Source of the DNA: Lactiplantibacillus daoliensis
Lineage (GTDB): Bacteria; Bacillota; Bacilli; Lactobacillales; Lactobacillaceae
Direction: 5' to 3'
Assembly: GCF_005405005.1 (NCBI RefSeq)
Contig: NZ_BJDH01000006.1
Span: forward strand, 124,001-188,000
Length of the DNA stretch: 64,000 nt
Part shown: positions 3,022 to 19,442 of the stretch, in pieces
Layout of the letters: each line of letters begins with the position of its first letter
How positions within the stretch are numbered: position 1 is the first letter of the stretch
Position numbers and translations under genes: made by a program
Notes under the pieces: generated by a model
Databases searched by the model: none
Told to the model about the DNA's origin: nothing
What the model saw: the letters and a program-made list of their open reading frames with translations, nothing else

Positions 3022-6000
3022 ATGAATAAAGAATCCGTAAATAATCAAAAAATGCACTACAAAATGTATAAAAAAGGTCGTTTCTGGTTATTCGCCGGCG
3101 TGTTAGTCATGACAACTTGGCAAGGGAGCCAAGTAATTGCACATGCTGATGAAACGACAACCACTAATGCTAGTGATGAAAGCAGCTCAGTGACAAGTAG
3201 TGCGGCTAAGTTGACGGACAAAGCTGTCGCATTAAGCAGTAGTTCTGATAGTTCAAAAACGGCTACAAGTGCAACTTCGACTAGCAATAGTGATGAAATT
3301 AGTACTAGTTCTACTAGTGCTAGTACCGACAAAACTGATACTTCTGATAGCGAAACAACTGAAACCGGCAGTAAAACTGCCAAAAGTAGTGCGGTAACTA
3401 CTGATTCGACGAGTGCTAGCGATACAGGTAATACTGGTACTAAGACGACGGCGACGGGTGACTCAAAAGTAACAACTGATAGCGTGACAGCAACGAATCA
3501 TTCGACTGAGCCAACAACGATAAGTTCAGCAACAAAACAAACCAGCAATCAAACGGCACCACAAGCAACGACCGCAGCATCATCAGCGACAGTTTCAGAA
3601 CCAACGACCACAATTGAAGCTGCTCCTGACGAAAATTTGACCTCTGAAAGTAACGATATCGACCCAGTTTTGGCTGATATGAAGGTTACAACGCCTGCGA
3701 CGAGTACTGAAAAACAAGTGACTAGCAATCGGGCCATGTTATTGCGCGCCGCGGTAGCCGCTGCCGATATTGCAAGCGGAACTGATTGGAATATTGATAG
3801 TGCCGGGGTATTACACCTTAATACCGGCGTGTTGACCAGTAGCACATCTTCTGCATTAAACACGGCTTGGGCTCCGTATGCTTCACAGATCAAGTCGATT
3901 TCAATTGATAGTGCGGTGGATGCTGGGACCAATACCGCCAATTTGTTCAAGGGACTAAATCAGGTTACAACGATTAGTGGTTTAGATCAGTTGGACACGA
4001 GCAAAGTGACCAACTTTGGCGATATGTTTTTCCAGATGACTAGTTTGACTAGCCTGGATTTATCGAGTTTTAATACCGACAAATTGACTAATGCAGCCCA
4101 AATGTTCTTGGGCGATTCGAGTTTAACGAGCTTGAACGTGAGTGGCTGGAATACGAGCAAAGTAACTAACATGGGGAGAGCCTTTAACGGTCTTAAAGCG
4201 TTAACCAGCTTAGATCTTTCTAGTTGGGATACGAGTGCTGCGACGAATATGGTCTCGATATTTTACGGCGACAGTTCTTTAGCTAACCTGAACTTAACGG
4301 GTTGGAATACCTCAAATGTAACTGACCTGAGTGGGATGTTTGCTGGCGATAGCAGTTTGACCAGTTTGGACCTCAGTAGCTGGGATGTTAGCAAGGCGAC
4401 GACTGTCACAAATATGTTCGGTGGTGATACTGCTCTGAAGACCCTGAATGTGTCAGGTTGGCAATTAAACGCCAACATTACGAGTTTGAAATCGTTTTTC
4501 CAAGGTTTGAAGAGCCTGACTGAATTAGACGCAGACGATTTTAACGCTGGTTCTGTGACTGATGTGACTAACCTATTCAACGGTGATACAGCATTAACGA
4601 CTTTAAATGCTAACAATTGGGGGTTGGACGACGTTACGGATCTAACAAATCTATTTGCCGGTTTAGCTGCCTTAACCACTGTCAATGCTAAAAATTGGCA
4701 GGTGGGTAAAGTGACGAGTGTGATGCAATTGTTTTACAATGATTCCAAGCTAACAACTGCCGATCTCAGTGGCTGGGATACAGCTAGCTTGACTAATATG
4801 CGAGGGGCATTTAATCAAGATGCCAGCCTAACGAGTGCCAATCTTGCTAATTGGAATGTTAGCAAGGTTACCGATATGGGGTATCTTTTCCATCTAGACG
4901 GTGCCTTAACCGATTTGACACTGACAGGTTGGAATCCAAGTAGTTTGGCAAAAGCCGATGCAATGTTTGCTGAAGACGGTGGCTTGACTACTATTGACAC
5001 GACAAATTGGAATTTGAGTCAGTTACAAAATGCGGATGATATGTTCGCTAACATGACAGCTCTTAAGAACATTGATACGACAGCTTGGAAGTTGACTAAG
5101 CTAACGACGGCTAATGATATGTTCTTTGGTGATACTAGTTTGACCGCTCTAGATACCAGTAATTGGGGGCTAGCCAACTTACAAAATGCTTTTGCAATGT
5201 TTAATGGCGATAGCGCCTTGGTATCATTAGGAACGACGACCAACTGGAATCTTAATAATGTGACGGATTCGAGTTACATGTTTGCTGATGACCAATTACT
5301 TTCGAGTCTAGATACGACCAACTGGGGACTTTCTAAGGATACAAATACGAAGGAAATGTTCTCCTATGCTTCTTCACTTAAAGCTTTGAATACGACAAAT
5401 TGGGATTTGAGTCAGTTACAAAATGCGGACGCTATGTTTGATAACGCGTCAAGTTTAGCAAATCTGAATACAACAGCTTGGAACTTGAGCAACTTACAGA
5501 CGGCGGCTAATATGTTTGCTAACATGACAGCTCTTGAGAATCTTGATACGACAGCTTGGAAGCTGACTAAGTTAACAACTGCTAATGATATGTTCTATGG
5601 CGACACTAGTTTGACTGCCCTAGATACAAGCAATTGGGGGCTGGCCAACTTACAAAATGCCTTTGCAATGTTTAATGGCGACAGAGCCTTGGTATCATTG
5701 GGAACGACGACTAACTGGAATCTTAATAATGTGACGAATTCGGGTTATATGTTTGCTAATGACCAGTTACTTTCAAGTCTAGATACGACCAACTGGGGAC
5801 TTTCTAAGGATGCAAATACGAAGGAAATGTTTTCCTATGTTTCTTCACTTAAAGCATTAGATACGACAAATTGGGATTTGAGCAAAGTCACCGATGCTAG
5901 TTTCATGTTTGAGCATGTTTCAGGGATTCAGACTCTTGATACGACCAATTGGCAGATTGGTGGTGCCATCAATGTTGCTGATATGTTTGCAAGAAATGCT

Positions 6001-7332
6001 AAACTTCAAAGTTTAGACCTCTCAAATTGGGATTTGACTAACGCGACCGATGTTACTGATATGTTGATAACGACACCGGCGTTACAGAATCTGAAGCTTG
6101 GCTCAAAGGTTCTCCTTGCAACGAACAGTGATGGTAGTGCGGTTCTTGGCGATGCGCCATTGAACGATACTTACACCGGCAAATGGATTAACAATGAAGG
6201 TCAGACCTTTACCGCCGCCGAGTTGATGGCCTTGTACAACGATACGTCGACCGCGGTTCCTGACACTTATGTTTGGCAAACAGATCAAACGGTTGTTACT
6301 GCCCATGATTCAGAGATTAATCAAAGTGGTCAAAATACTTGGAAGGCCGCCGATAACTTTGACACGGCAATGAATGCGGATGGTCAAACCCTCAAAGCAG
6401 CTGATATGACTGTCGATGGTAGTGTTGACACTACTACGCCAGGCCAATATACGGTGACTTATAGTTACTTGAATGCGGCTGGGAATGCCGTTAGTGCGGT
6501 GGCGAAAGTTACAGTCGTTGCAAGTCAAGTTTCTGTCGACGCACATGATACGACAATTATGCAGGGCCAAACTTGGTCAGCTGCAGATAACCTTGACAGT
6601 GCGACTGATTTCAACGGTAATGCGGTTGATTTCAAGAATGTGGCTGTGACTGGTGCGGATCAAGTTAAAACGCAAACACCAGGGACTTATGATGTGATCT
6701 ATCGTTATACGGATGCCAACGGCAATATTGCCACTAAAGTCGTTATGATCACAGTTAAAGCCAGCCAAGTTTCAGTTGATGCCGATGATGCGACTGTTAC
6801 ACAAGGGCAAACTTGGAAGGCTGCGGATAGCTTTGTTGGCGCTACGGATGCTAAGGGTAATGCCGTTGATTTCAGCCAAGTGACTGTTACCGATGCAGAC
6901 CAAGTCAACACGGCAGTTCCTGGAACTTATCAGGTGACCTATGGCTTTACTGATGCGTATGGAAATGCTGTTACAAAAGTTGTTACGATTACGGTTCAGC
7001 CCAAAGTTTCAGCCGGTGATAATACTAGTTCAAACACGGCTACTGGTAATTCTAGCCAAGCAGATACGATTGATCCAATGACTGCGGGCAAGCAGGTGGA
7101 TGCAGAAGCAACTGCCAGAGAAATGGTGATGCCAAGTTCTCAAGCCGTTGCAACCACTAAGCCGATGGGTCAAACAACTAAATCAGCACCAAAAGCGGCC
7201 GCTGATCAAGCTAAGAAGTTGCCACAAACTAACGAAAGCTCAGCGGATGGTGCCGTTATCTTAGGTGCAATTGTGTTGGGAATGACCGGGCTATTCAGTT
7301 TCTTCAACAAGAAACGCCGGACTGGTAAATAA
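3022..7332 (+). CDS. giant LPQTN-anchored BspA-like (DUF285 repeat) surface protein
   Basis: The 1436-residue protein has a KxYKxGKxW-type signal (K14, Y16, K17, G19, R20, W22; Arg replaces the usual second Lys). A Ser/Thr-rich, probably glycosylated stalk covers about residues 45-220. Next comes a long array (about 255-1035) of roughly 24-residue repeats of the pattern SLTSLDLSSWDTSxVTNM, the BspA-like/DUF285 leucine-rich type. Three Ig-like Big_3-type repeats follow (about 1090-1345). The sorting signal LPQTN starts at residue 1400, followed by a hydrophobic segment and KKRR tail. Such proteins are covalently wall-anchored adhesins; the ligand is unknown. The start is ATG 3022 after GAGGGG. 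A 471-bp in-frame duplication lies inside the array. Its closest relative in the window is the next gene. Confidence 0.9.
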   Translation: MNKESVNNQKMHYKMYKKGRFWLFAGVLVMTTWQGSQVIAHADETTTTNASDESSSVTSSAAKLTDKAVALSSSSDSSKTATSATSTSNSDEISTSSTSASTDKTDTSDSETTETGSKTAKSSAVTTDSTSASDTGNTGTKTTATGDSKVTTDSVTATNHSTEPTTISSATKQTSNQTAPQATTAASSATVSEPTTTIEAAPDENLTSESNDIDPVLADMKVTTPATSTEKQVTSNRAMLLRAAVAAADIASGTDWNIDSAGVLHLNTGVLTSSTSSALNTAWAPYASQIKSISIDSAVDAGTNTANLFKGLNQVTTISGLDQLDTSKVTNFGDMFFQMTSLTSLDLSSFNTDKLTNAAQMFLGDSSLTSLNVSGWNTSKVTNMGRAFNGLKALTSLDLSSWDTSAATNMVSIFYGDSSLANLNLTGWNTSNVTDLSGMFAGDSSLTSLDLSSWDVSKATTVTNMFGGDTALKTLNVSGWQLNANITSLKSFFQGLKSLTELDADDFNAGSVTDVTNLFNGDTALTTLNANNWGLDDVTDLTNLFAGLAALTTVNAKNWQVGKVTSVMQLFYNDSKLTTADLSGWDTASLTNMRGAFNQDASLTSANLANWNVSKVTDMGYLFHLDGALTDLTLTGWNPSSLAKADAMFAEDGGLTTIDTTNWNLSQLQNADDMFANMTALKNIDTTAWKLTKLTTANDMFFGDTSLTALDTSNWGLANLQNAFAMFNGDSALVSLGTTTNWNLNNVTDSSYMFADDQLLSSLDTTNWGLSKDTNTKEMFSYASSLKALNTTNWDLSQLQNADAMFDNASSLANLNTTAWNLSNLQTAANMFANMTALENLDTTAWKLTKLTTANDMFYGDTSLTALDTSNWGLANLQNAFAMFNGDRALVSLGTTTNWNLNNVTNSGYMFANDQLLSSLDTTNWGLSKDANTKEMFSYVSSLKALDTTNWDLSKVTDASFMFEHVSGIQTLDTTNWQIGGAINVADMFARNAKLQSLDLSNWDLTNATDVTDMLITTPALQNLKLGSKVLLATNSDGSAVLGDAPLNDTYTGKWINNEGQTFTAAELMALYNDTSTAVPDTYVWQTDQTVVTAHDSEINQSGQNTWKAADNFDTAMNADGQTLKAADMTVDGSVDTTTPGQYTVTYSYLNAAGNAVSAVAKVTVVASQVSVDAHDTTIMQGQTWSAADNLDSATDFNGNAVDFKNVAVTGADQVKTQTPGTYDVIYRYTDANGNIATKVVMITVKASQVSVDADDATVTQGQTWKAADSFVGATDAKGNAVDFSQVTVTDADQVNTAVPGTYQVTYGFTDAYGNAVTKVVTITVQPKVSAGDNTSSNTATGNSSQADTIDPMTAGKQVDAEATAREMVMPSSQAVATTKPMGQTTKSAPKAAADQAKKLPQTNESSADGAVILGAIVLGMTGLFSFFNKKRRTGK
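5041..5888 (+). repeat. in-frame tandem segmental duplication, period 471 bp
   Basis: Bases 5041-5417 recur at 5512-5888 with few changes, an offset of exactly 471 bp (157 codons). The duplicated unit covers several DUF285 repeats, including the segments LTTANDMF and NLQNAFAMFNGD. The reading frame is kept, so the adhesin array appears to have grown recently by recombination. Confidence 0.85.
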
Positions 7333-7380: not shown

Positions 7381-7816
7381 TCTGGAGCGGCTTTAGTAAG
7401 TAAAACTTAAAATTATTCAAAAAATAACGGATATAGTTAAACGCGTTGACTATTACGAGAGGTTATTCTTCTTGACTAACTTAATTGCGTATAACTAATC
7501 ATAATGTTTATCAAAGTTTACAAAAACAAAACAAGCGAGTTTTTGAGCTGTTTTTTTAATAAGTTGAAGAATATCGATAACAAATATTAATGGTTGCATT
7601 ACAGCAAACTAAAGTTATGCTCTCACTAAACCAAACTGTTGCAGGAACATATAGGAATTAAAGCACTACAAACCCCGCCACTAAAGGATTCTTGTATTTG
7701 CATCTCCTTGGTTTAGTAGGTACACTATCAATGACGATAAAAGTAAATGCCGTGTAGTCAAAAAAATAAATCCGCTAATAATTTTTCATGGGGTAGCGGT
7801 AGGGAGTGTTTTGATC

Positions 7817-10800
7817 ATGAGTAATAAGAAGCAGTTAACTTTATCAGGAACTCAGAAAGAACATTATAAGATGTATAAGAAAGGTCGCTTCTGGTTATTT
7901 GCTGGGGTCTTAGTCATGACAACTTGGCAAGGTAATCAGGTTGTTTCGCATGCTGCTGAAACAGCGTCCACAGATACCGCCGAGCAGACGCCTGCAGTAA
8001 CAACGGTTCCGACGCAGTTAACCAGTAAGACAGTGACTTTAGGAGTGGAAACGACTAGTTCAGTTAAAAGTGAAAGCGATTCCGCACTCAACGATAGTTC
8101 TGCAACTAGTACTGAAGCAACGAGCACTTCGACAGCAAGTGACAAGGTTTCAAGCGCTAGTTCAAGTACAACGAGTGTGGCAACTAGTAGTACTAGCGCT
8201 TCTACTAAAGAAAGTCAGACCAGTCAGTCGGCCGGTTCAGCGATGAGCACTTCATCGACTGCAACGAGTGTGGCCAGCTCAGCCACCAAAGAAAATACCT
8301 CGGCCGTTAGTTCAAGTGTCGCAACGCCAACTGACCAAGAGAATAATAACTTGAAGAATGAATCAACTAAGTCTGATGAAACAGGCAATACACCAGTTCA
8401 ATCAGGTCAGACGGTCACTGGTGATTTGACGACAACAGGTACAGTGACTGATGATGAAACTAGTGAATTAACCGCTGCTGAGAGTGCGACGGATCAGTTA
8501 GCGGTCGCTAAGACTGACGCAGTTGCACCGCAAACCGCGACTAAAGATCAACTGGTGACTAATCAGCGGATAATGATGATGCGGGCAGCCGCTGCTGATA
8601 TTGCGGCAGGCGATGGCTGGAACATTGATAGTAACGGCGTGTTACATATTTTGAGTGGGGCGAATTTATCTAGCAATGTTGCGTTGAATGCGCTGTGGCT
8701 GGCTAATGCTAGTTCGATTACGTCGATTGTCTTTGATGGCCCCGTGACAGCTGGAACAAGTACTGGGACTCTGTTTAAAGGCTTAAATAAAGTTACCACG
8801 ATTACCGGTATTGAAAATTTGGATACCAGTAAAACGACTAATTTTGGGTCTATGTTTTATGGAATGTCGAGTTTAACTAGCTTAGATTTGTCGAGTTTGA
8901 ATACTAGTCAAGCCACTAATTTCGCTCAACTGGTCTATGGTGATAGCGCCTTAACCAGTCTCAACGTGAGCGGCCTGGATACTAGCCAAGTCACTAATAT
9001 GGGTAGTGCTTTTAATGGCTTGAAGTCGTTGACTAGTTTGGATTTGTCTAGTTGGAATACCAGTGCTGTGACCACGACTAACTCAATGTTTAGTGGTGAT
9101 ACTGTCTTAACTGACTTGAACTTGACCGGCTGGAACACGAGCAATGTTAAGAATATGGGTGGGATGTTTTCTGGTGACTCAAGTCTGACCAGTCTGGATT
9201 TAAGTAGCTTCAACACTAATAACGTCACCGATATGAACACGATGTTTACTAACGATCAGCGGTTGCAAACGATTAATTTTGGCACTAACTGGAATACAGC
9301 GAATGTGACTAACATGGTTAACATGTTCAAAAATAATAGTGCCTTAACTAGCTTAGACTTGAGTGGCTGGAATATGAGTAAAGTCACTAATATTACCAGC
9401 ATGTTTTTGAATGATACCGCTCTGAAATCACTAAATGTGAGTGGCTGGCAACTTAACTCAAGTATTACGAGTTTAGCATCATTCTTTGCTGGACTGACAA
9501 GTTTAACTGATTTTACGGCTGATAACTTTGATGCCAGTCATGTCACTGATATTACCAATCTATTTAATGGTGATAAGCAGTTGAAGACATTGAAAGCAGC
9601 TAATTGGGACCTGAGTAGTGTGAATGATTTGACTGCGATGTTCAAGCAGCTGACGGCATTGACGACAGTTGTGGCCCCTAACTGGAAGATTGGCCGAGTG
9701 ACGAGTTTGTATCAAATGTTTATGATGGATGCCAACTTAACGACGGCGGATCTGAGTGGTTGGGAAACAGGTAGCGTGACAATGACCAGGGGGATGTTTT
9801 ATCAGGACAGTAACCTCACCAATTTAAATTTGGCAAATTGGGATACGAGTCAGGTTACGGACATGCATCAGATGTTTACACAAAATACGGCTTTGACCCA
9901 GCTAGATCTTTCAAATTGGGATACGAGTAGCTTGGTTGATGCTGGTGGGATGTTCTATCAAGATAGTAATTTAGCAAACTTGGATGTGTCTGGTTGGAAT
10001 ACGGGCAATTTACAGCTTGCTGATGGTATGTTTAGTGGGATGACTAACTTAACCACTTTGGATGTGTCGAACTGGAATACGAGCAGTTTAACTGATGCAA
10101 CCAATATGTTTAACCAGGATAAGAGTTTGGCAGTTTTAGATGTGTCCAATTGGGATACTAGTCAGGTCACAAGTATGCGGCAGATGTTTCCACAAATGAC
10201 AGCCTTGACTAAGTTAGATGTTTCTAAGTGGGATACGAGCAGTTTAGTAGATGCCAGTGGGATGTTCTATGAAGATACTGGTCTGACAACATTGGATGTG
10301 TCCAAATGGAATACCAGTAATTTAAGTGATGCGGATGGCATATTTAGTAGCATGACAAACTTGACTAGTCTAGATGTGTCCAAATGGGATACAAGTAGCC
10401 TGGTTAGCGCGGGCGATATGTTCTTCCGAGACTTTGGTTTAACGACTTTAAATGTGTCCAATTGGGATGTCGGTAATCTCGTCAATGGATTCGCGATGTT
10501 TAATAATATTCCAAATGTGACGACGCTAGATGTTTCTAAGTGGCGACCAGTCAGTCTTCAAGATGCTAGCTTCATGTTCTCAATGGATTCCAGTGTAACT
10601 GAGTATGACCTGTCTCAATGGGGTTCTACTCAAATCACCACGATGGCGCATATGTTTGATCAGAACAGTGCGTTAACATCACTTGATCTATCCGGGATTG
10701 ATATGTCCAACGTCACTGATGTTTACATGATGTTAGTTGCCGTGACCGCATTGAAAAAGTTAACGCTAGGTACTGAAAATAAGCTTGACGTCGCAGCGAC

Positions 10801-12304
10801 GGGCGCATCGTTGCCTGAAATTCAGGTGACACCTGGGTATGGTGGCTACACTGGCTACTGGGTCGATACCAAGGGTAACATGTTCACGTCTAATCAATTA
10901 ATGGCACAGTTTGACGGTGCGACTATGGCTGACACGTATGTTTGGCAAACTCGCCAAACAACTCTGAATGTCCATGATTCTACTGTTAACCAAACTGGAA
11001 CGAATCAATGGCAACCATCAGATAACTTTACTGACGGGACGGATATTTATGGAAACGCGTTGACGAGTGCCGACGTTGTGATCAGCAATGGCGCTAGAGA
11101 TGCGGTAACTCCTGGCGTAGATACAACGGTTCCAGGCATCTATACCGTGACCTATCACTATACGGATGCCGCTAAGTGTGAAGTTACGGCCAATGCGACT
11201 ATTACAGTGGTTGCTAGCAAGGTGGCTGTCACGGCACATGATACCACAGTGACTCAAGGCCAGGATTGGACAGCAGCTGATAGCTTTGATCAGGCAGTCG
11301 ATTTTGATGGGCAACCTGCTGATTTTAAGGACGTGACAGTAACTGGTGCCGATGCAGTCAACACAAAGGTTCCTGGTGATTACCAAGTGACTTACAGTTA
11401 TACGGATGCGAATGGTAATAGTGCTGAGAAGACAATCACGGTGACGGTCATCAAGTCAGAAGTTGCGGTTGATGCAAGCGACGCGACGATTATGCAGGGT
11501 CAAGCTTGGACGGCAGCGAATAGTTTTAAAGGTGCCACAGACGCTGCCGGTAATGCGGTTGATTTCAAAGATGTGACGGTAACTGGCGCCGATGCAGTCA
11601 ACACGAAAGTTCCTGGCGAGTACCAAGTGACTTATAGTTATATTGATGCGTATGGGAACAGTGCTGAGAAGACGATTACGGTGACTGTTAACGCCAGCCA
11701 ATTCGGGTTGGATGTTAAAGACATGACTGTTCAACAAGGATCACAATGGCAAGCGGCGGATAGTTTTGTGAACGCTACTGATGAGAATGGACAACCAGTT
11801 GATTTTGCCAATGTGACAGTTACTGGTGCTGATGCCGTTGATACGACCACGCCGGGGAGTTACCAAGTCACTTACAGTTACACGGATGGTTTTGGTAATA
11901 CGATTACTAAGACTATCACAGTTACTGTAACGGCTACGCCAGATACCGGTGATGGCGGTGGTGATATCACCACGACTGATCCTGATGAAATTGATCCCGA
12001 TACAGATAACGGGACAGCTGGTGGTGACACGAACGGGTCCAATGGCAATAGTAACGGCCAAGCGGATACGATTACGACCGCTGATCCAAAAGGGTCTCAG
12101 AGTGGCACCAAGGTCGTCCCAACAGTTGCCACGACTAAGACCGAGATGCACGCCTTAGTACCGAAGTCAGGGACGAATAAAGCTACTACTTTGCCACAGA
12201 CTGATGAACAGACAACAAGAGGCGCAATTTTGTTAGGCATTACGTTGTTGGGTATGACCAGTGTGTTAGGGTTCTTTGGTAAGAAACGTCACACTGAAAA
12301 GTAA
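7817..12304 (+). CDS. second giant LPQTD-anchored BspA-like (DUF285 repeat) surface protein
   Basis: This 1495-residue paralogue of the preceding gene shares the KxYKxGKxW signal region almost exactly (K18, Y20, K21, G23, W26). It has a Ser/Thr-rich stalk (about 45-250), a longer DUF285/BspA-like repeat array (about 270-990), four Ig-like Big_3-type repeats (about 1045-1375), an Asp/Gly-rich linker and an LPQTD sorting signal starting at residue 1459 with a membrane segment and charged tail. It should be sortase-anchored and act in adhesion. A TTG at 7811 is also in frame, but ATG 7817 is better spaced from AGGGAG (7801-7806). The pair probably arose by gene duplication; each copy has its own terminator and leader. 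Confidence 0.9.
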   Translation: MSNKKQLTLSGTQKEHYKMYKKGRFWLFAGVLVMTTWQGNQVVSHAAETASTDTAEQTPAVTTVPTQLTSKTVTLGVETTSSVKSESDSALNDSSATSTEATSTSTASDKVSSASSSTTSVATSSTSASTKESQTSQSAGSAMSTSSTATSVASSATKENTSAVSSSVATPTDQENNNLKNESTKSDETGNTPVQSGQTVTGDLTTTGTVTDDETSELTAAESATDQLAVAKTDAVAPQTATKDQLVTNQRIMMMRAAAADIAAGDGWNIDSNGVLHILSGANLSSNVALNALWLANASSITSIVFDGPVTAGTSTGTLFKGLNKVTTITGIENLDTSKTTNFGSMFYGMSSLTSLDLSSLNTSQATNFAQLVYGDSALTSLNVSGLDTSQVTNMGSAFNGLKSLTSLDLSSWNTSAVTTTNSMFSGDTVLTDLNLTGWNTSNVKNMGGMFSGDSSLTSLDLSSFNTNNVTDMNTMFTNDQRLQTINFGTNWNTANVTNMVNMFKNNSALTSLDLSGWNMSKVTNITSMFLNDTALKSLNVSGWQLNSSITSLASFFAGLTSLTDFTADNFDASHVTDITNLFNGDKQLKTLKAANWDLSSVNDLTAMFKQLTALTTVVAPNWKIGRVTSLYQMFMMDANLTTADLSGWETGSVTMTRGMFYQDSNLTNLNLANWDTSQVTDMHQMFTQNTALTQLDLSNWDTSSLVDAGGMFYQDSNLANLDVSGWNTGNLQLADGMFSGMTNLTTLDVSNWNTSSLTDATNMFNQDKSLAVLDVSNWDTSQVTSMRQMFPQMTALTKLDVSKWDTSSLVDASGMFYEDTGLTTLDVSKWNTSNLSDADGIFSSMTNLTSLDVSKWDTSSLVSAGDMFFRDFGLTTLNVSNWDVGNLVNGFAMFNNIPNVTTLDVSKWRPVSLQDASFMFSMDSSVTEYDLSQWGSTQITTMAHMFDQNSALTSLDLSGIDMSNVTDVYMMLVAVTALKKLTLGTENKLDVAATGASLPEIQVTPGYGGYTGYWVDTKGNMFTSNQLMAQFDGATMADTYVWQTRQTTLNVHDSTVNQTGTNQWQPSDNFTDGTDIYGNALTSADVVISNGARDAVTPGVDTTVPGIYTVTYHYTDAAKCEVTANATITVVASKVAVTAHDTTVTQGQDWTAADSFDQAVDFDGQPADFKDVTVTGADAVNTKVPGDYQVTYSYTDANGNSAEKTITVTVIKSEVAVDASDATIMQGQAWTAANSFKGATDAAGNAVDFKDVTVTGADAVNTKVPGEYQVTYSYIDAYGNSAEKTITVTVNASQFGLDVKDMTVQQGSQWQAADSFVNATDENGQPVDFANVTVTGADAVDTTTPGSYQVTYSYTDGFGNTITKTITVTVTATPDTGDGGGDITTTDPDEIDPDTDNGTAGGDTNGSNGNSNGQADTITTADPKGSQSGTKVVPTVATTKTEMHALVPKSGTNKATTLPQTDEQTTRGAILLGITLLGMTSVLGFFGKKRHTEK

Positions 12305-12485: not shown

Positions 12486-12569
12486 TTGACCTGAAACCCG
12501 TTCGATGGGTTACAGTAAAGACGAATTAAGAAAGCGCTTAATCGATTGAAGAAACTGGTGGTCACCAGT
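12486..12569 (+). promoter_or_regulatory. regulatory region of the EIIA-like gene
   Basis: TTGACC (12486-12491) is a possible -35, with a possible TACAGT -10 19 bases on. The spacer holds an inverted repeat AACCC-N7-GGGTT (12495-12511). Downstream lies a weak cre-like AGAAAGCGCTTAAT (about 12530), with three mismatches to consensus, then a perfect palindrome ACTGGTG-GT-CACCAGT (12554-12569) in the probable leader. The density of symmetric sites suggests regulated expression; which factor binds is unknown. Confidence 0.4.
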
Positions 12570-12601
12570 AATTGAACCCTAACTTAATGGAGGTCTTTAT
12601 A

Positions 12602-13063
12602 ATGATGAAATTATTCCAACGCAAACACACACTTACTCTAGCAGTGCCAGTTAATGGTCTATATGTTGATTTACGCAAAGCTGGCGAAACTGCGGTGACG
12701 GCGGGCTTTGCCATCGAACCAATGGAAGGCGAAATTCATGCGCCCATTGCTGGTCAAGTGACCAAGGTTACGTCGCAAACGGTGACGATTGCCGCTGATT
12801 TTGGTTGCGAGTATTTGGTACAAATCGGCCAGCTTACAGATGATATAGCGTCGCAAAGTGTTAACTGGCAAGTCGCAGTCGGTGATGCGGTTGCACCAGA
12901 TGTTATATTGGCAACTTTAGATATTGATGCGATCCATGCGGCTAACAAATCTGCATTGGTTACTTGCGGGTTGATTGGTAAACAAGCAGCAGATTTTGAA
13001 ATTAGTCAAACTGGGTTAATTTCACAAGGTAAGGTATTAGCTACACTTAAAATTAAAGCTTAA
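12602..13063 (+). CDS. PTS EIIA (glucose-type)-like protein lacking both active-site histidines
   Basis: The 153-residue product has the glucose-family EIIA (Crr-like) fold pattern: IEPMEGEIHAPIAGQV (38-53), an SQTVTIAADFG strand, then EYLVQIG and a GDAV segment. In E. coli Crr the two active-site histidines lie 15 residues apart (H75, and H90 in a V-H-F-G context). Here the aligned positions are Gln59 and Gln74, also 15 apart. It therefore should not accept phosphate from HPr and may be a regulatory or scaffolding homologue. ATG 12602 follows GGAGG (12589-12593) with 8-nt spacing; a longer frame to 12572 lacks a ribosome site. No EIIB/EIIC is adjacent. Confidence 0.8.
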   Translation: MMKLFQRKHTLTLAVPVNGLYVDLRKAGETAVTAGFAIEPMEGEIHAPIAGQVTKVTSQTVTIAADFGCEYLVQIGQLTDDIASQSVNWQVAVGDAVAPDVILATLDIDAIHAANKSALVTCGLIGKQAADFEISQTGLISQGKVLATLKIKA

Positions 13064-13070
13064 AATGATT

Positions 13071-13096
13071 AAGTCGACGAGCTGGTCGGCTTTTTT
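13071..13096 (+). terminator. intrinsic terminator of the EIIA-like gene
   Basis: Arms AAGTCGAC/GTCGGCTT followed by TTTT. Confidence 0.8.
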
Positions 13097-13310: not shown

Positions 13311-13577
13311 ATGACGGCAGTTCAAGATTGGCACTCGACATATCAAGAATTAAGTCGGATCTTGGGTGAAACCGCCGCCTTAGCATTATATGAGCAATTT
13401 GGTGGGACCCAGCTGACATTTCCAAAAAGATTATTGGCTAAGGATGCGGAAGCACGTCAAATTTTAGTTGATTATCAACGAGGGCTCAGTCTCTCAGAAC
13501 TAGCCCGGCGGCATGATTATTCGGAAAAAAGTATTCGCCTAATTTTGGGAAAATTTAAGGAATTAAACGATGACTAA
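13311..13577 (+). CDS. Mor/C-type small HTH transcriptional regulator
   Basis: The 88-residue protein resembles the Mor transcription-activator family. An N-terminal helical part (about 1-35) is followed by the FPKRLLAKDAEARQIL segment and a helix-turn-helix GLSLSELARRHDYSEKSIRLIL (about 58-80). Mor is a phage Mu middle-operon activator, and short chromosomal homologues are common in Firmicutes. No phage genes are nearby, so its target is unknown. ATG 13311 is preceded by an AGAGG-type Shine-Dalgarno. Confidence 0.7.
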   Translation: MTAVQDWHSTYQELSRILGETAALALYEQFGGTQLTFPKRLLAKDAEARQILVDYQRGLSLSELARRHDYSEKSIRLILGKFKELNDD

Positions 13578-14722: not shown

Positions 14723-14748
14723 AACGTCACTTACTGGTGGCGTTTTTT
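14723..14748 (+). terminator. intrinsic terminator of the zinc-ribbon gene
   Basis: Arms ACGTCAC/GTGGCGT followed by TTTTTT; it overlaps the 3' end of the convergent AraC gene. Confidence 0.75.
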
Positions 14749-15737
14749 GTTGTCTTCAAATTTTGACGATAATCTCGTGGGGTGTTCCCGGTGGCGGCCT
14801 CAAAACGACGATAAAAATTCGTTAGATTATTAATCCCTACGGCAGTGGCGATATCACTAATGGGTAAGGTTTGATCTTGTAGCAGCAATTTTGCTCGTTG
14901 CATCCGTTGCTCGTTGATCAATTGCTTAAAAGTCTTGCCAGTATAATACCGAATCAGTTTACTGATGTATGATGGACTGTAATTGATTTGCTGGCAAAGT
15001 GCACTTAAACAGCCTTCTTGATAGTGGTTATGCGTGTAAGCAACGATTTTTTCCAATAGTTGTTGCGTTTTCAAATCGTTGGGATCGACATTGGTTTGTA
15101 GCGGCTGAATCCGCATCAGCGCCGTGAATAAAATGGCAATGTAGTCATCGATAATTGCGTCGGCATTGATGGCCGCTGACAATTGCTCACAGAGGATATT
15201 TTGAATACAGTTGTGAATAATCGGCAATGTTTTGGTATCAAAGATTAAATAATGGGTGTGCGCATATTGCTGACTCATCAACTCAATCAAAAAGGACGGC
15301 AAGACATTATTAGTGGCAGTGGATTTAAGCATTGTATGGTCGAAAAAATCATCTGCGAGGATAATGTTTACTCCCAAATCAGCAGTCGAGGTGGGGGCCA
15401 CGTTGTGTGGAACCGATTTATCTAAAATAATCAACTCACCTTGATGCAAGGTGATGGGGTGTCCCTCGACGTGTAAGCTCAGCTGACCATGATAGACATA
15501 CATAATCACCACATAGTGATAGATATGGTAAGGAACTTGCCCCATGTTGCGCTGATGCAATTGTATTAAATGATATTGATTGTCGAACGGTCGCTGGGTA
15601 TTAAAAACAAACAATTGTTTATGACGATAAGGGACTGCCTGATATTTGCTTTTGAAGTGATCCAGCACGGCTTCATCAGTCGTATTGCTAAGGGTGGCAG
15701 TACTCGTCAGATAAGTCGCTAATTCTTGATAAGTCAT
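14727..15737 (-). CDS. AraC-family transcriptional regulator with N-terminal cupin sensor
   Basis: The 336-residue protein has an N-terminal cupin-like sugar-sensing domain (around HYVVIMYVYHGQLSLHVEGH) and a C-terminal AraC double helix-turn-helix of about 100 residues. The latter includes LSALCQQINYSPSYISKLI and the conserved ISDIATAVGINNLTNFYRRF followed by GNTPRDYR. It is divergent from the EIIC/rhamnosidase operon and is the obvious candidate to control it in response to a rhamnoside or its product. The start chosen is ATG 15737 after AGGT; in-frame ATG 15755 and TTG 15761 have weaker sites. Confidence 0.85.
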   Translation of the reverse strand: MTYQELATYLTSTATLSNTTDEAVLDHFKSKYQAVPYRHKQLFVFNTQRPFDNQYHLIQLHQRNMGQVPYHIYHYVVIMYVYHGQLSLHVEGHPITLHQGELIILDKSVPHNVAPTSTADLGVNIILADDFFDHTMLKSTATNNVLPSFLIELMSQQYAHTHYLIFDTKTLPIIHNCIQNILCEQLSAAINADAIIDDYIAILFTALMRIQPLQTNVDPNDLKTQQLLEKIVAYTHNHYQEGCLSALCQQINYSPSYISKLIRYYTGKTFKQLINEQRMQRAKLLLQDQTLPISDIATAVGINNLTNFYRRFEAATGNTPRDYRQNLKTTKNATSK

Positions 15738-15794
15738 TCGAAGACCTGCTTTCATAGCCAAAAAAGATAGTTTTTTAAATGGAATTAGCCATTG

Positions 15795-15808: not shown

Positions 15809-15862
15809 TTACCGTTATTATAACATTGTAAAGTAAATGAGTTGAAAAGGAAGTGCATTATT

Positions 15863-17167
15863 TTGAATAAATTTTTTACCCAATTTCAAGGTCAACTTGG
15901 CCGTTTATCCATGGCTTTCAATAAGAATATTTATATAAACGCGATTAAGGATGGGATGTTAGCCTACATGCCATTTACCGTCATTACCTCGGTTTTCTTA
16001 ATCCTAGGAAACTTTCCGGTACCACAAGTTAATCATTGGTTTGCCTCATTATTTGGACTAACGGTTACTGAGTGGGGTGCCAAGTTAGGGATTGTCAACG
16101 ATGCCAGTCTAGTGATTGGTGGATTACTGGTCCTACTGGCAATCTCACGAACTTTGGCCGACAAAATGTCACTTAATGGCATGCAAGTTCAACTAACCGC
16201 TGTCGTTAGTTTCATGGTTTTAACGCCCTATAAGACGACTGCTAAAGGGAGTTTTCTTGATATTGCCACGATTGGCGCACAGTCTATCTTTCTAGCAATT
16301 TTGGTTTCAATCGCGGTTGCCTTGATCTACCGGACAATCGACCGCAAGGGGATCAAAATTAAAATGCCAGCATCAGTGCCACCAGCTGTTTCAGCGCCAT
16401 TTGAGTCTTTGATTCCATCTTTTGTTGTGATTACGGTCTTTTGGGCTGTTCGGTTAGTATTAGACGCCTTCGCCCATCAGAGTGCCTTAGCACTGTTCAA
16501 CATGGTCTTAGGAACACCATTAAAAGCGATGGGTGGTTCGCTAATCGGCGTTATTTTAGTTAAATTATTTGGCCAATTATTGTGGTTTTTCGGTATCCAT
16601 GGTGATTCAATCGTCAATGGTGTCATGACGCCAATTTTCCAAGTTTTACAAGATGAAAATAAAACGGCTAGTTTGGCCGGTAAAGTCGCTCCAAATATTA
16701 TTTCACAAAGTTTCTGGGATGGTTTTGCCAGTATTGGGGTAATTGGCTCGATTTTTGCCATTATTCTCATTGCCCGCAGTCAGCGGTATCGAGAAATGAA
16801 GAAAATTGCCGGGATTCCTTATCTGTTTAATATTGGTGAACCAACCTTATTCGGGATTCCATTGATGTTAAATGTGACTTATTTCATTCCGTTAGTTTTC
16901 AGTAATATTGTTTCAATCGTAATTTCCTACGCAGCGTTTGCTTGGAAATTAGTGCCAATTCCAACTGGACTCGTTCAAGTACCATGGACGACGCCAATTA
17001 TTATCAGTGGTTATCTAGTGACTGGCAGTTTATCCGGCGCTATTTTACAGATTGTTTGTTTCGTTGCAGTTATCTTAGTCTGGTTACCATTTGTACGAAT
17101 TGCTGATCGTGAATTGCTTGCTGAAGAGCAACAGGAGGCGCCAAATGCTGACCAAAGCAAATCCTAA
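15863..17167 (+). CDS. PTS EIIC, lactose/cellobiose family
   Basis: The 434-residue membrane protein belongs to the lactose/cellobiose (CelB-like) EIIC permeases. Diagnostic features are DGMLAYMPFTVITSVFLILG near the N-terminus, FFGIHGDSIVNGVM mid-protein and the signature NIGEPTLFGIPLMLN in the C-terminal half. The start is probably TTG 15863, 10 nt after AAGGAAG (15846-15852). The last 23 bases overlap the rhamnosidase gene, so the two are translationally coupled. No EIIA or EIIB partner is adjacent, so subunits must be supplied from elsewhere or the protein acts without phosphorylation. Probable substrates are rhamnose-containing glycosides. Confidence 0.85.
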   Translation: MNKFFTQFQGQLGRLSMAFNKNIYINAIKDGMLAYMPFTVITSVFLILGNFPVPQVNHWFASLFGLTVTEWGAKLGIVNDASLVIGGLLVLLAISRTLADKMSLNGMQVQLTAVVSFMVLTPYKTTAKGSFLDIATIGAQSIFLAILVSIAVALIYRTIDRKGIKIKMPASVPPAVSAPFESLIPSFVVITVFWAVRLVLDAFAHQSALALFNMVLGTPLKAMGGSLIGVILVKLFGQLLWFFGIHGDSIVNGVMTPIFQVLQDENKTASLAGKVAPNIISQSFWDGFASIGVIGSIFAIILIARSQRYREMKKIAGIPYLFNIGEPTLFGIPLMLNVTYFIPLVFSNIVSIVISYAAFAWKLVPIPTGLVQVPWTTPIIISGYLVTGSLSGAILQIVCFVAVILVWLPFVRIADRELLAEEQQEAPNADQSKS

Positions 17168-19442
17168 TTTTGATTTCATGGGCGACTGGCTTCAAGGGCC
17201 AATCAGTGACTATGGCCCGGACGATGCTGGTTACTATCAACATAATCCCAATCCAATCTTTCGTCGCAGCTTCCAATATGACGGGGATGCGCCAGCTACG
17301 TTGAAAGTGGCCGTATTAGGTTATGACCGGATCAAGTTGAATGGTCAACGCATTGGCCATGCAGAACTTAATAGTGATTGGACTGATTATGCCAAACGTC
17401 TCTATTATGATAGTTACGATGTGACGGCGAATTTACACTCAGGTGTCAATCAAATTGAAGTTGAATTGGGGAACGGTATGTATAATCCCTCACCATTACG
17501 GCTTTTTGGCAAATATAATTTGCGAGAACGTTTGGGGCAAATCGGTGAGCCACGGGTCTTATTGAATCTAATTGTCGCTGGTCAAACAGTGCTGACGACG
17601 GATAGCAGTTGGGAAATGCGGGCTGGTCAGTTAACGTTTAACAACCTTTATTTAGGCGAAACTTGGGATAATTATCATGAGTTGGAGGCCTGGCAACCGG
17701 CGAATACGGTTCCAGTTACCACGTCGGAACGAACTCGACTACGACCAAGTATGATTCCCAAAGTGACACGGCAGCAAACGATTACGCCGGTCGATGTCTT
17801 ACCGGACGGGCAAGCCTTGATCGTAGATTTTGGGGAAGTCGTGAGTGGTTTTTTCAAAATCACGCTGCAAGGGACTGCTCAGCAACGAGTGAAATTGCAG
17901 TACAGTGAGACTAAAACAGCCGGTAAACTGGACTTTTCAACGTCATATGTTGGTAATATTGGGAGTATTCCCGGGGTGTCCGGTGGTCCTGGCGCGCCTA
18001 AATTAGCAATTCAGACGGATCGCTTGATTTGCCGGGAAGGCGAACAGACTTTTGAAAATCAATTTTGTTATCATTCTTTTCGCTATGTTAAGATTCAGGG
18101 TTGTGATCGAGCTGCCATTAAAGCCTTAGAGGCAACCTATGTGCACACTGATTTAACGGTTGTTGGTCAGGTCAAAACAGACAATCCCTTTCTGACGCAA
18201 TTATTTGACGCTGGAATGCGGACTAAGCTGAATAACGTGCATTCGATTTTTGAAGATTGTGCTCGTGAACGGTTTGGTTATGGCGGTGATATTGTTGCTT
18301 TGGCGGCCTCAAATCTTTATTCATTCGACTTACAACAGTTTTATCGAAAGACGTTGGATGACTTTTTGATCGAACAGACAGCGCGTGGTGGCCTGCCTGA
18401 AACGGCCCCATATATGGGAATCCAAACCAATGGCACTGGGGAGGGCGAAGGCCCAATCTTGTGGCAACTTGTACTGCCATACTTGTTATTGAAACAGTAT
18501 CAATTTTATGGTGAGCGTGATTTGGTGCAAGCCGTTTATCCGAAAGCTAAGCGACAATTGACCTATCTATTATCAATACCACTGACAGAATTGGTTCAAG
18601 ACTGTATTGGCGACCATGGGAGTATCTTGGTCAAGGATTTTCATGATGAAACGCCTGACAAAGAATTTATTGGGTACTGTACGGTCTTGGCGTTTATTAA
18701 ATTGATGCAACGACTCGCAGTGATCGTCGAGGCTACGGAAGACGCGCAAACTTATCAGCAACAGGCCGAACAGCTGACACAAACGATGCTCGATAAGTTT
18801 AGCCATGCGGATGGCACCCTGGCTAACGGCACTCAGTCGGCGTATGCTTTTGCGTTATTACTGAAGGTTGGCGATACTCAGCAGAATATGACACAATTAC
18901 TAGCACAGCTTAAGCGCGACCAAGGCATTTTTACCACTGGTATATACGGAACCGCCGCCCTGTATCATGTTTTACATCACTATCAACATGACGAGATTGT
19001 TGCTCATTGGTTGACTCAGGATAGTGCGGTCAGTTTCAAACGGATGCTGGCTACGGGCAATCAAGTCCTGGCAGAGCTTTTCCAAGGTAAGTATTATTCG
19101 GCCAATCATGCGATGTTTACCAGTTATATTCAGTGGTTTTATGAAGCACTCAGTGGCATTGAACTTTCAACAGATGCGGTTGGCAGTTCTAAAATCATCA
19201 TTCAGCCGTTCTTTATGCCAGGTGTCAATCAGTTGACGGCGACCTTCACGACGATTCGTGGCGAGATTCAAACAAGTTGGCAACGTGATGGCCAGTTAGT
19301 CCATTTCAAGGCTCAATTGCCAAGTAGTATTGAGGTCCAGTTTAAAGCGCCTAATCCAGAGACCAAGATTATTAGTGTGACCAATTTTGGCGATGGTCAG
19401 ATTTTGATTGATTATCAGGTCGGCGCAACAACTGAGCGCTAG
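17145..19442 (+). CDS. intracellular alpha-L-rhamnosidase, GH78
   Basis: The 765-residue protein lacks a signal peptide, so it acts in the cytoplasm. It has the GH78 layout: N-terminal beta-sandwich domains (about 1-300, including LNGQRIGHAELNSDWTDY), then an (alpha/alpha)6 catalytic barrel and a C-terminal beta domain. The conserved acidic cluster of the family is present as EDCARERFGYGGD, with D371, E375 and D382 as the likely catalytic and binding carboxylates. The enzyme would release L-rhamnose from plant glycosides imported by the coupled EIIC. ATG 17145 follows AGGAGG. The arrangement AraC / PTS EIIC / GH78 is a compact rhamnoside utilisation module. Confidence 0.9.
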   Translation: MLTKANPNFDFMGDWLQGPISDYGPDDAGYYQHNPNPIFRRSFQYDGDAPATLKVAVLGYDRIKLNGQRIGHAELNSDWTDYAKRLYYDSYDVTANLHSGVNQIEVELGNGMYNPSPLRLFGKYNLRERLGQIGEPRVLLNLIVAGQTVLTTDSSWEMRAGQLTFNNLYLGETWDNYHELEAWQPANTVPVTTSERTRLRPSMIPKVTRQQTITPVDVLPDGQALIVDFGEVVSGFFKITLQGTAQQRVKLQYSETKTAGKLDFSTSYVGNIGSIPGVSGGPGAPKLAIQTDRLICREGEQTFENQFCYHSFRYVKIQGCDRAAIKALEATYVHTDLTVVGQVKTDNPFLTQLFDAGMRTKLNNVHSIFEDCARERFGYGGDIVALAASNLYSFDLQQFYRKTLDDFLIEQTARGGLPETAPYMGIQTNGTGEGEGPILWQLVLPYLLLKQYQFYGERDLVQAVYPKAKRQLTYLLSIPLTELVQDCIGDHGSILVKDFHDETPDKEFIGYCTVLAFIKLMQRLAVIVEATEDAQTYQQQAEQLTQTMLDKFSHADGTLANGTQSAYAFALLLKVGDTQQNMTQLLAQLKRDQGIFTTGIYGTAALYHVLHHYQHDEIVAHWLTQDSAVSFKRMLATGNQVLAELFQGKYYSANHAMFTSYIQWFYEALSGIELSTDAVGSSKIIIQPFFMPGVNQLTATFTTIRGEIQTSWQRDGQLVHFKAQLPSSIEVQFKAPNPETKIISVTNFGDGQILIDYQVGATTER

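Follow-up and report, generated by a model that had tools for sequence, protein, structure and literature searches.

An EIIA(Glc)-like protein with glutamine at both phosphorylation sites is conserved among Lactiplantibacillus genomes

The window, that is, the 64,000-nucleotide stretch of the Lactiplantibacillus daoliensis genome analysed here, contains a gene for a protein of the EIIA(Glc) type, in which Gln occupies the positions of both catalytic His residues. The gene raises the question whether such a protein is an error of the sequence, a decaying copy, an ordinary EIIA, or an EIIA fold with another task. The coordinates given for the open reading frame in the first-pass annotation (Table 1) are correct according to the ORF list and the translation. 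The earliest possible start codon of the frame is a TTG at 12572; the ATG at 12602 is favoured because of the GGAGG sequence at 12589-12593 and because the N-terminal residues MMKLFQRK are invariant in 12 of 12 orthologues.

Table 1 Coordinates of the EIIA(Glc)-like gene and of its control elements in the window
Feature	Position	Strand	Basis
-35 hexamer TTGACC	12486..12491	+	TTGAC in 12/12 orthologues, part of the genus-wide motif; absent from the output of a promoter scanner that takes only spacers of 16-18 bp
Operator-like imperfect dyad TGAAACCCGTTCGA, within the promoter spacer	12492..12505	+	conserved before families A, B, and C and the LacI-1 gene; LacI binding is inferred
-10 hexamer TACAGT, 19-bp spacer	12511..12516	+	spacer scoring over sites
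Cre-like site AAGAAAGCGCTTAATC	12528..12543	+	by eye; weak
Palindrome ACTGGTGGTCACCAGT, 16 bp, core GGTGGYCACY, 5' untranslated region	12554..12569		core in 12/12 orthologues
Ribosome-binding site GGAGG	12589..12593	+	sequence
Gene of the 153-aa EIIA(Glc)-like protein that lacks the phospho-acceptor His (family A)	12602..13063	+	ORF, Pfam, orthologue alignment, structure model
Gln59 codon, position of E. coli His75	12776..12778	+	alignments, codon comparison
Gln74 codon, position of phospho-acceptor E. coli His90	12821..12823	+	alignments, codon comparison
Probable terminator (stem of 8 bp including one G-T pair, loop of 6 nt, then a T run)	13071..13096	+	by eye; absent from the output of a terminator scanner that demands 5 T after the stem

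Identity, conservation, and fold of the protein

The window protein passes the Pfam model PTS_EIIA_1 (PF00358; 49.5 bits, cut-off 27.2) and lies below the curated cut-off of PTBA (TIGR00830; 41.9 bits, cut-off 97.5), the NCBIfam model for glucose IIA domains. The window's genome has 14 matches to PF00358, the lowest scores being those of the window gene (49.1 bits in this search) and of a gene of family B (24.6 bits), a family that is described below. When the protein is aligned by phmmer with 1ax3 of B. subtilis and 2gpr of M. capricolum, Q59 and Q74 are positioned opposite His, which bears out the earlier claim that both catalytic His residues are replaced by Gln. Alignment to E. coli Crr gives the same placement.

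Orthologues were sought by a protein search of 150 genomes (the window's own, 20 others of the genus, and 129 of the family and order) and by a profile search of the 21 genus genomes. Close orthologues, which together with the window protein we call family A, are present in 12 of the 21 Lactiplantibacillus genomes, the window's own included, and the 11 others are 48-84% identical to the window protein. The top match outside the genus in the 150-genome protein search has 57.1 bits and 32% identity. Gln59 and Gln74 are invariant in all 12 members, as are C69, W89, H112, and C122 in addition to the N-terminal residues. This answers the question, posed with the first-pass annotation, of whether orthologues keep the Gln pair, and rules out sequencing error or mutation as its cause. 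Across species both CAA and CAG are used for Gln59 and Gln74, while the residue is constant. The dN/dS ratios, calculated with our own NG86 script, are 0.04-0.15 in nine of ten pairs, the tenth having no value owing to saturated dS and several others being near saturation. Together, these comparisons support the view that the Gln pair is maintained under purifying selection.

The loss of the catalytic residues, together with the long tree branches of the related families B and C, might suggest a decaying remnant of a duplicated EIIA gene. However, the dN/dS ratios rule out a pseudogene, the Gln codons vary synonymously, the reading frame is intact in 12 of 12 members, and the promoter is conserved (see below). 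A decaying remnant is hardly credible.

To compare family A with canonical EIIA(Glc) (PF00358; E. coli Crr, IIA domain of B. subtilis PtsG), we use an alignment of 68 rows, comprising 39 rows outside families A, B, and C, 11 of the 12 members of family A, 11 of the 12 then known members of family B, and 7 of the 9 then known members of family C. His is found at both catalytic positions in 39 of the 39 canonical rows. The VF...M.G.G loop (V in 35 and F in 37 of these rows) is deleted, all 11 family A rows of the alignment having a gap there. Where 36 of the 39 have the G of HA.G, these 11 rows have Thr, and the D and V of the G.DTVEL motif (35 and 38 of 39, respectively) are both replaced. In contrast, residues G19, P40, P48, G51, and G76 are retained. 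Family A shares with canonical EIIA(Glc) the fold and the Gly/Pro core, and differs from it in both His residues, the loop, the HA.G and G.DTVEL motifs, and the sub-cut-off TIGR00830 score. The earlier statement that the surrounding fold motifs are kept is thus correct as regards the Gly/Pro core and incorrect as regards the loop and the G.DTVEL motif.

The structure model of family A has a pLDDT of 84.1 and a pTM of 0.77 when built from a deep alignment that includes canonical EIIAs, whereas the 12 family A rows alone give a pLDDT of 39.3. The best matches of the deep-alignment model are IIA(Glc) structures, as anticipated if the protein fits the EIIA fold. Matches to known structures include 1gpr (E 2.3e-9) and 1f3g (E 2.3e-8), and superposition gives Z 19.9 and rmsd 3.1 over 147 aligned residues for 2gpr, and Z 19.7 and rmsd 1.8 over 141 aligned residues for 1f3g. 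The model matches EIIA(Glc) structures over almost its full length and supports assignment of family A to the EIIA(Glc) fold.

In canonical EIIA, the VF...M.G.G loop and the G.DTVEL motif adjoin the active site and help to form the docking face for HPr and EIIB. As both His residues are Gln and the active-site face is remodelled, family A is probably no longer a phospho-carrier; the alignments support the prediction that the protein should not accept a phosphoryl group at either EIIA site. The first-pass annotation had proposed a phosphorylation-blind regulator or a decoy, with Gln as a possible mimic of an uncharged or locked state. The first part is in accordance with the Gln pair at both phosphoryl sites in 12 of 12 members. 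The second part would mean a dominant-negative protein in competition with active EIIA for binding to HPr or EIIB. The EIIA fold, the replacement of His by Gln, and the operator-like motif shared with other genes (see below) would suit such a protein, but the loop and the motif next to the active site are deleted or replaced, which weakens a simple HPr decoy in particular. We consider a decoy quite improbable.

Family A is conserved, and is neither an error nor an ordinary EIIA; it is an EIIA-fold protein that has probably become phosphorylation-blind.

Promoter and candidate regulator of the gene

The description of the gene as stand-alone agrees with the 12 loci: the neighbours vary among all but the closer species pairs, and the gene neighbourhood of the 12 loci contains no genus-wide constant partner. 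An acetyltransferase-like gene (by eye) is the next gene after family A in 4 of the 12 loci.

The window contains several other features. Two large repeat-rich surface-protein-like ORFs with nearly identical starts are arranged in tandem (3022-7332 and 7811-12304). An 88-aa protein (13311-13577) matches the Mor family (29.6 bits, cut-off 24.9), and two relatives in a tandem arrangement are located near the EIIA-like gene in L046. Further on, the gene of an AraC-type regulator (14727-15761) is divergent from that of a lactose/cellobiose-type EIIC (15842-17167), which is followed by a large ORF (17091-19442) that may encode a glycoside hydrolase (by eye).

The upstream region, called unusually rich in the first-pass annotation, does contain three notable elements, namely the dyad in the promoter spacer, the palindrome of 16 bp, and the cre-like site. 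The promoter is common to 12 of 12 family A orthologues and reads TTGAC[CTG]T[GA]AAAC[CT]CGTTCGAT[AG]; a spacer of 19 bp, which contains the dyad, separates the -35 hexamer from a -10-like hexamer. A spacer of 19 bp is the top-scoring one in 89 of the 116 distinct sites of the retrieved loci, a figure that is biased toward 19 because many of the loci were retrieved by a pattern already including the TA of the -10 hexamer. The cre-like site, judged against what we take to be the cre consensus, occurs in a GCGC or GCAC form in six of the 12 orthologues and is absent from the other six (by eye). The palindrome lies about 40 bp beyond the promoter, before the start codon, and is not seen in the upstream alignment of family B. 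Read as an RNA hairpin, it has a two-sided change in one of six pairs, which is weak covariation; it is possibly a second operator or an mRNA hairpin. Taken as a whole, the upstream alignments support a conserved regulatory region of family A.

An operator of the GntR/HutC type (ACTGGT-N4-ACCAGT) was also considered and was rejected. It has 2 exact matches in the window's own genome and 11 at one mismatch or fewer, versus 20 for the reversed control. As the matches are fewer than those of the control, they provide no regulon evidence.

The promoter motif is also found upstream of a LacI-family gene, LacI-1. When LacI-1 matches are set against motif sites, all 21 genus genomes have the site ahead of LacI-1; direct reading of the retrieved LacI-1 loci locates it in 18 of 19, and the site of L225 is present in the genus-wide motif scan. 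In the window's genome, LacI-1 (312 aa) lies on contig C2, and the gene after it encodes a HAD-IIB phosphatase of the Cof type (TIGR00099, 187.5 bits, cut-off 137); the two genes are adjacent, on one strand, behind the site. An operator-like site ahead of both the regulator gene and, in 12 of 12 genomes, the family A gene is the arrangement of a LacI regulon, and LacI-1 probably binds this site. The HAD-IIB phosphatase behind the shared site, which is putatively co-regulated, fits a response to sugar-phosphate stress.

Other regulators were weighed. A 19-bp spacer is more typical of MerR-activated promoters, and a MerR activator, our first idea, would also suit it; the window's genome has 12 MerR_1 matches. 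LacI is preferred to MerR because the site precedes the LacI gene in every genus genome. A second LacI protein, LacI-2, is present in 11 of the 21 genomes and absent from the window's own, and was rejected as the regulator of the window gene. The four such loci that were read (L183, L187, L191, and L197) have a related palindrome ahead of LacI-2 or of the HAD gene that accompanies it.

EIIA-like genes behind the same motif

A loose pattern of the operator-like motif, which already contains the TA of the -10 hexamer, finds 111 sites in 21 of 21 genus genomes versus 3 reversed-control matches. Four of the sites are in the window's own genome. Three of them precede LacI-1/HAD, a family B gene, and the window gene, and the fourth is located upstream of an MFS-like ORF at a distance of about 0.7 kb. 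This fourth site overlaps the end of another gene. A homologue of the MFS-like gene (L179) resembles DHA2 drug exporters (TIGR00711, 195.7 bits, below the cut-off of 230.2) rather than a sugar exporter, a point against the role in sugar uptake that is proposed below. The window's genome encodes another divergent stand-alone EIIA-like protein (L012:1411-2010) that keeps both His residues and has a very long tree branch.

Two further families of stand-alone degenerate EIIAs have the same promoter form upstream, namely family B, with proteins of about 125-149 aa, and family C (M.LFSFGKKVKLYAPVDG...). Family B with the motif is present in 20 of the 21 genomes (not seen in G018), family A in 12, and family C in 10; every genus genome except G007 carries family A or C. 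At least one His is lost in 8 of 11 family B rows, the other three retaining both, and in 7 of 7 family C rows. In the tree, families A and B are joined (100/100), family C is joined with the His-bearing family D (98/91), families B and C have long branches, and family A is not resolved as one clade. By parsimony, this tree indicates that His was lost at least twice within the genus. On these comparisons, family A is not a singular case, since several degenerate EIIA-like families have the same operator-like motif upstream.

Family D resembles family A in size, in its upstream motif, and in being stand-alone, but it keeps both His residues and the canonical motifs, and is probably a working EIIA. 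The motif is close to family D in G013 and about 480 bp away in G008 and G017. Given that three of the 11 family B rows and family D, also behind the motif, have both His residues, membership of the regulon does not in every case require a phospho-dead EIIA. In G007 (L199:2961-6256), a family D EIIA lies beside a large EIIC/IICB-like ORF (by eye) and a LacI gene with the motif upstream, a possible ancestral setting of these EIIAs. In many genus genomes, the same motif is followed by a protein of 84-92 aa that starts with METGILKQ (L178:3481-3735, L267, L277, L278, L282, and L284); the protein of L178 has no match in Pfam or NCBIfam.

The comparison of the families also bears on a rival reading, in which family A is a neofunctionalised binder of a small molecule or a metal with no PTS role, and C69, C122, H112, and W89 form a new site. 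These four residues are invariant in family A, while among the 39 canonical rows C69 and C122 are never found and H112 and W89 once each, and the canonical motifs next to the active site are lost. However, the complete set of four is confined to family A. In family B, W89 is present in all 11 rows and C122 in six of them, with neither C69 nor H112, and family C has none of the four, although both families share the promoter motif. We therefore hold a new binding site of this kind to be unlikely.

Outside the genus the motif is noisy, with 32 sites versus 17 reversed-control matches. Sixteen of the 32 sites were read: three precede PF00358 genes, three PF00359 genes, five LacI or HAD genes, and five other genes. 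In four genomes, namely G030 of one genus and G087, G053, and G264 of another, the site lies 65-78 bp ahead of a stand-alone EIIA-like domain. In all four of these site-bearing PF00358 genes His75 is kept and His90 is lost, being replaced by Tyr in G030, Asn in G087, Phe in G053, and Tyr in G264, a count in which the search was seeded with three of the four proteins, only G264 (L305) is independent, and three of the genomes belong to one genus. A LacI gene is at most about 2 kb away, with a HAD gene beyond it, in three of the four (G030, G087, and G264); in G264 only the apparent end of the HAD gene is in view, and the G053 contig is too short to show this neighbourhood.

The longer list of PF00358 matches gives the comparison with genes that have no such site. 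Of 30 loci from this list, five carry the site no more than 300 bp upstream of the frame; four of these lack His90, and the fifth, the family D gene of G013, has both His residues. The 25 loci without the site directly upstream all have both His residues; 15 of them are stand-alone EIIA genes, 10 are domains of large proteins with the gene starts out of view, and the site-less loci include L301 and L306 (family D), in which the site is about 480 bp upstream.

A second type of EIIA is found behind the motif as well. In G069, the gene behind the site (L286:1576-2001) encodes a fructose/PtsN-type EIIA that scores 27.0 bits with PF00359, right at the cut-off, and that has Lys aligned to the MPHA His, which we take to be the active His of PF00359 EIIAs. 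The like gene behind the site in G169 and G080 retains this His (L293:986-1450 is the His-bearing example). Small numbers, seeded searches, and a noisy motif notwithstanding, the sites outside the genus point one way, namely that the phospho-acceptor is often lost behind this operator.

Proposed role and its precedents

The fold family, the loss of both His residues, the conservation and selection, the one-gene unit, the shared motif, and the link to LacI and HAD are the observations from which we start. On their basis we propose that family A is a functional, neofunctionalised paralogue of stand-alone EIIA(Glc) that belongs to a LacI-HAD regulon and acts by phosphorylation-blind binding, perhaps restraining PTS uptake. 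We see the chances of this proposal as evenly balanced, and hold the specific uptake brake to be rather less likely than not. The protein would be made from a one-gene unit, the promoter dyad of which is common to the LacI and Cof-type HAD pair and to the sister EIIA-like genes. The signal of a LacI-family protein is likely a sugar or a sugar phosphate. Release of the site by LacI-1 would let the family A protein accumulate, and the protein would act by binding a protein partner, in a manner that phosphorylation could not switch. The likeliest partner would be a PTS component or a PTS-linked regulator, although a PTS partner is not assured because the active-site face is remodelled. The likeliest effect would be that PTS sugar uptake is restrained while the co-regulated HAD phosphatase deals with sugar phosphates.

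This proposal resembles the glucose-phosphate stress response of E. coli (SgrR, SgrS/SgrT, YigL, and SetA). According to PMC4021124, SgrT inhibits PtsG in the SgrS/SgrT-YigL response and YigL is a HAD-like phosphatase. The likeness is confined to the logic, in that one control motif is common to the gene of a HAD-type phosphatase, to that of a small protein that is a candidate for facing the PTS, and to a transporter-like gene. The differences are that the E. coli regulator is SgrR whereas the site here is of LacI type, that SgrT has about 40 aa and is not EIIA-like, and that the transporter here is DHA2-like.

A rival proposal starts from the regulator. CcpA is a member of the LacI family, and its DNA binding is tuned by Crh and HPr(Ser-P). 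By analogy, family A or its sisters would bind a LacI-family regulator, tune its DNA binding, and thereby exert feedback on their own gene. The motif common to the EIIA-like genes and the LacI gene throughout the 21 genus genomes, and the LacI gene nearby in three other genomes, are consistent with this proposal. In addition, Crh is a precedent: in PMC9631020, it is described as a paralogue of the PTS protein HPr with Gln at the catalytic His, retained as a regulator that binds CcpA. Family A likewise is a PTS paralogue with Gln for the catalytic His. However, Crh has the HPr fold and a regulatory Ser46, whereas the family A model is EIIA(Glc), no Ser46-like switch is known here, and the co-regulation could be output only. 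A Crh-like co-regulator is accordingly a minority reading, to which we give little weight next to the main proposal. Crh is the nearest precedent for a retained PTS paralogue in which Gln replaces a catalytic His, and SgrS/SgrT-YigL that for the logic of a phosphatase combined with an uptake brake.

In the open-licence literature, searched by title and abstract opening, we find no description of a His-less EIIA paralogue or of a regulon of this kind. It is possible, though doubtful, that the phospho-dead EIIAs of Lactobacillaceae form a class of dedicated inhibitors or co-regulators. In such a sugar-phosphate-stress circuit, assembled from parts of the PTS, a LacI sensor would release the HAD-IIB phosphatase along with EIIA-like brakes on PTS uptake, and His would have been lost several times behind one operator, in EIIAs of two unrelated types.

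EIIA signalling is usually attributed to the phosphorylation state, and a conserved, selected EIIA lineage without phosphorylation sites departs from that. If the reading as a conserved phospho-dead EIIA lineage is true, family A would be an EIIA counterpart of Crh. It would also offer a testable entry to the limits on sugar uptake in lactic acid bacteria, in a genus that is used in food fermentation.
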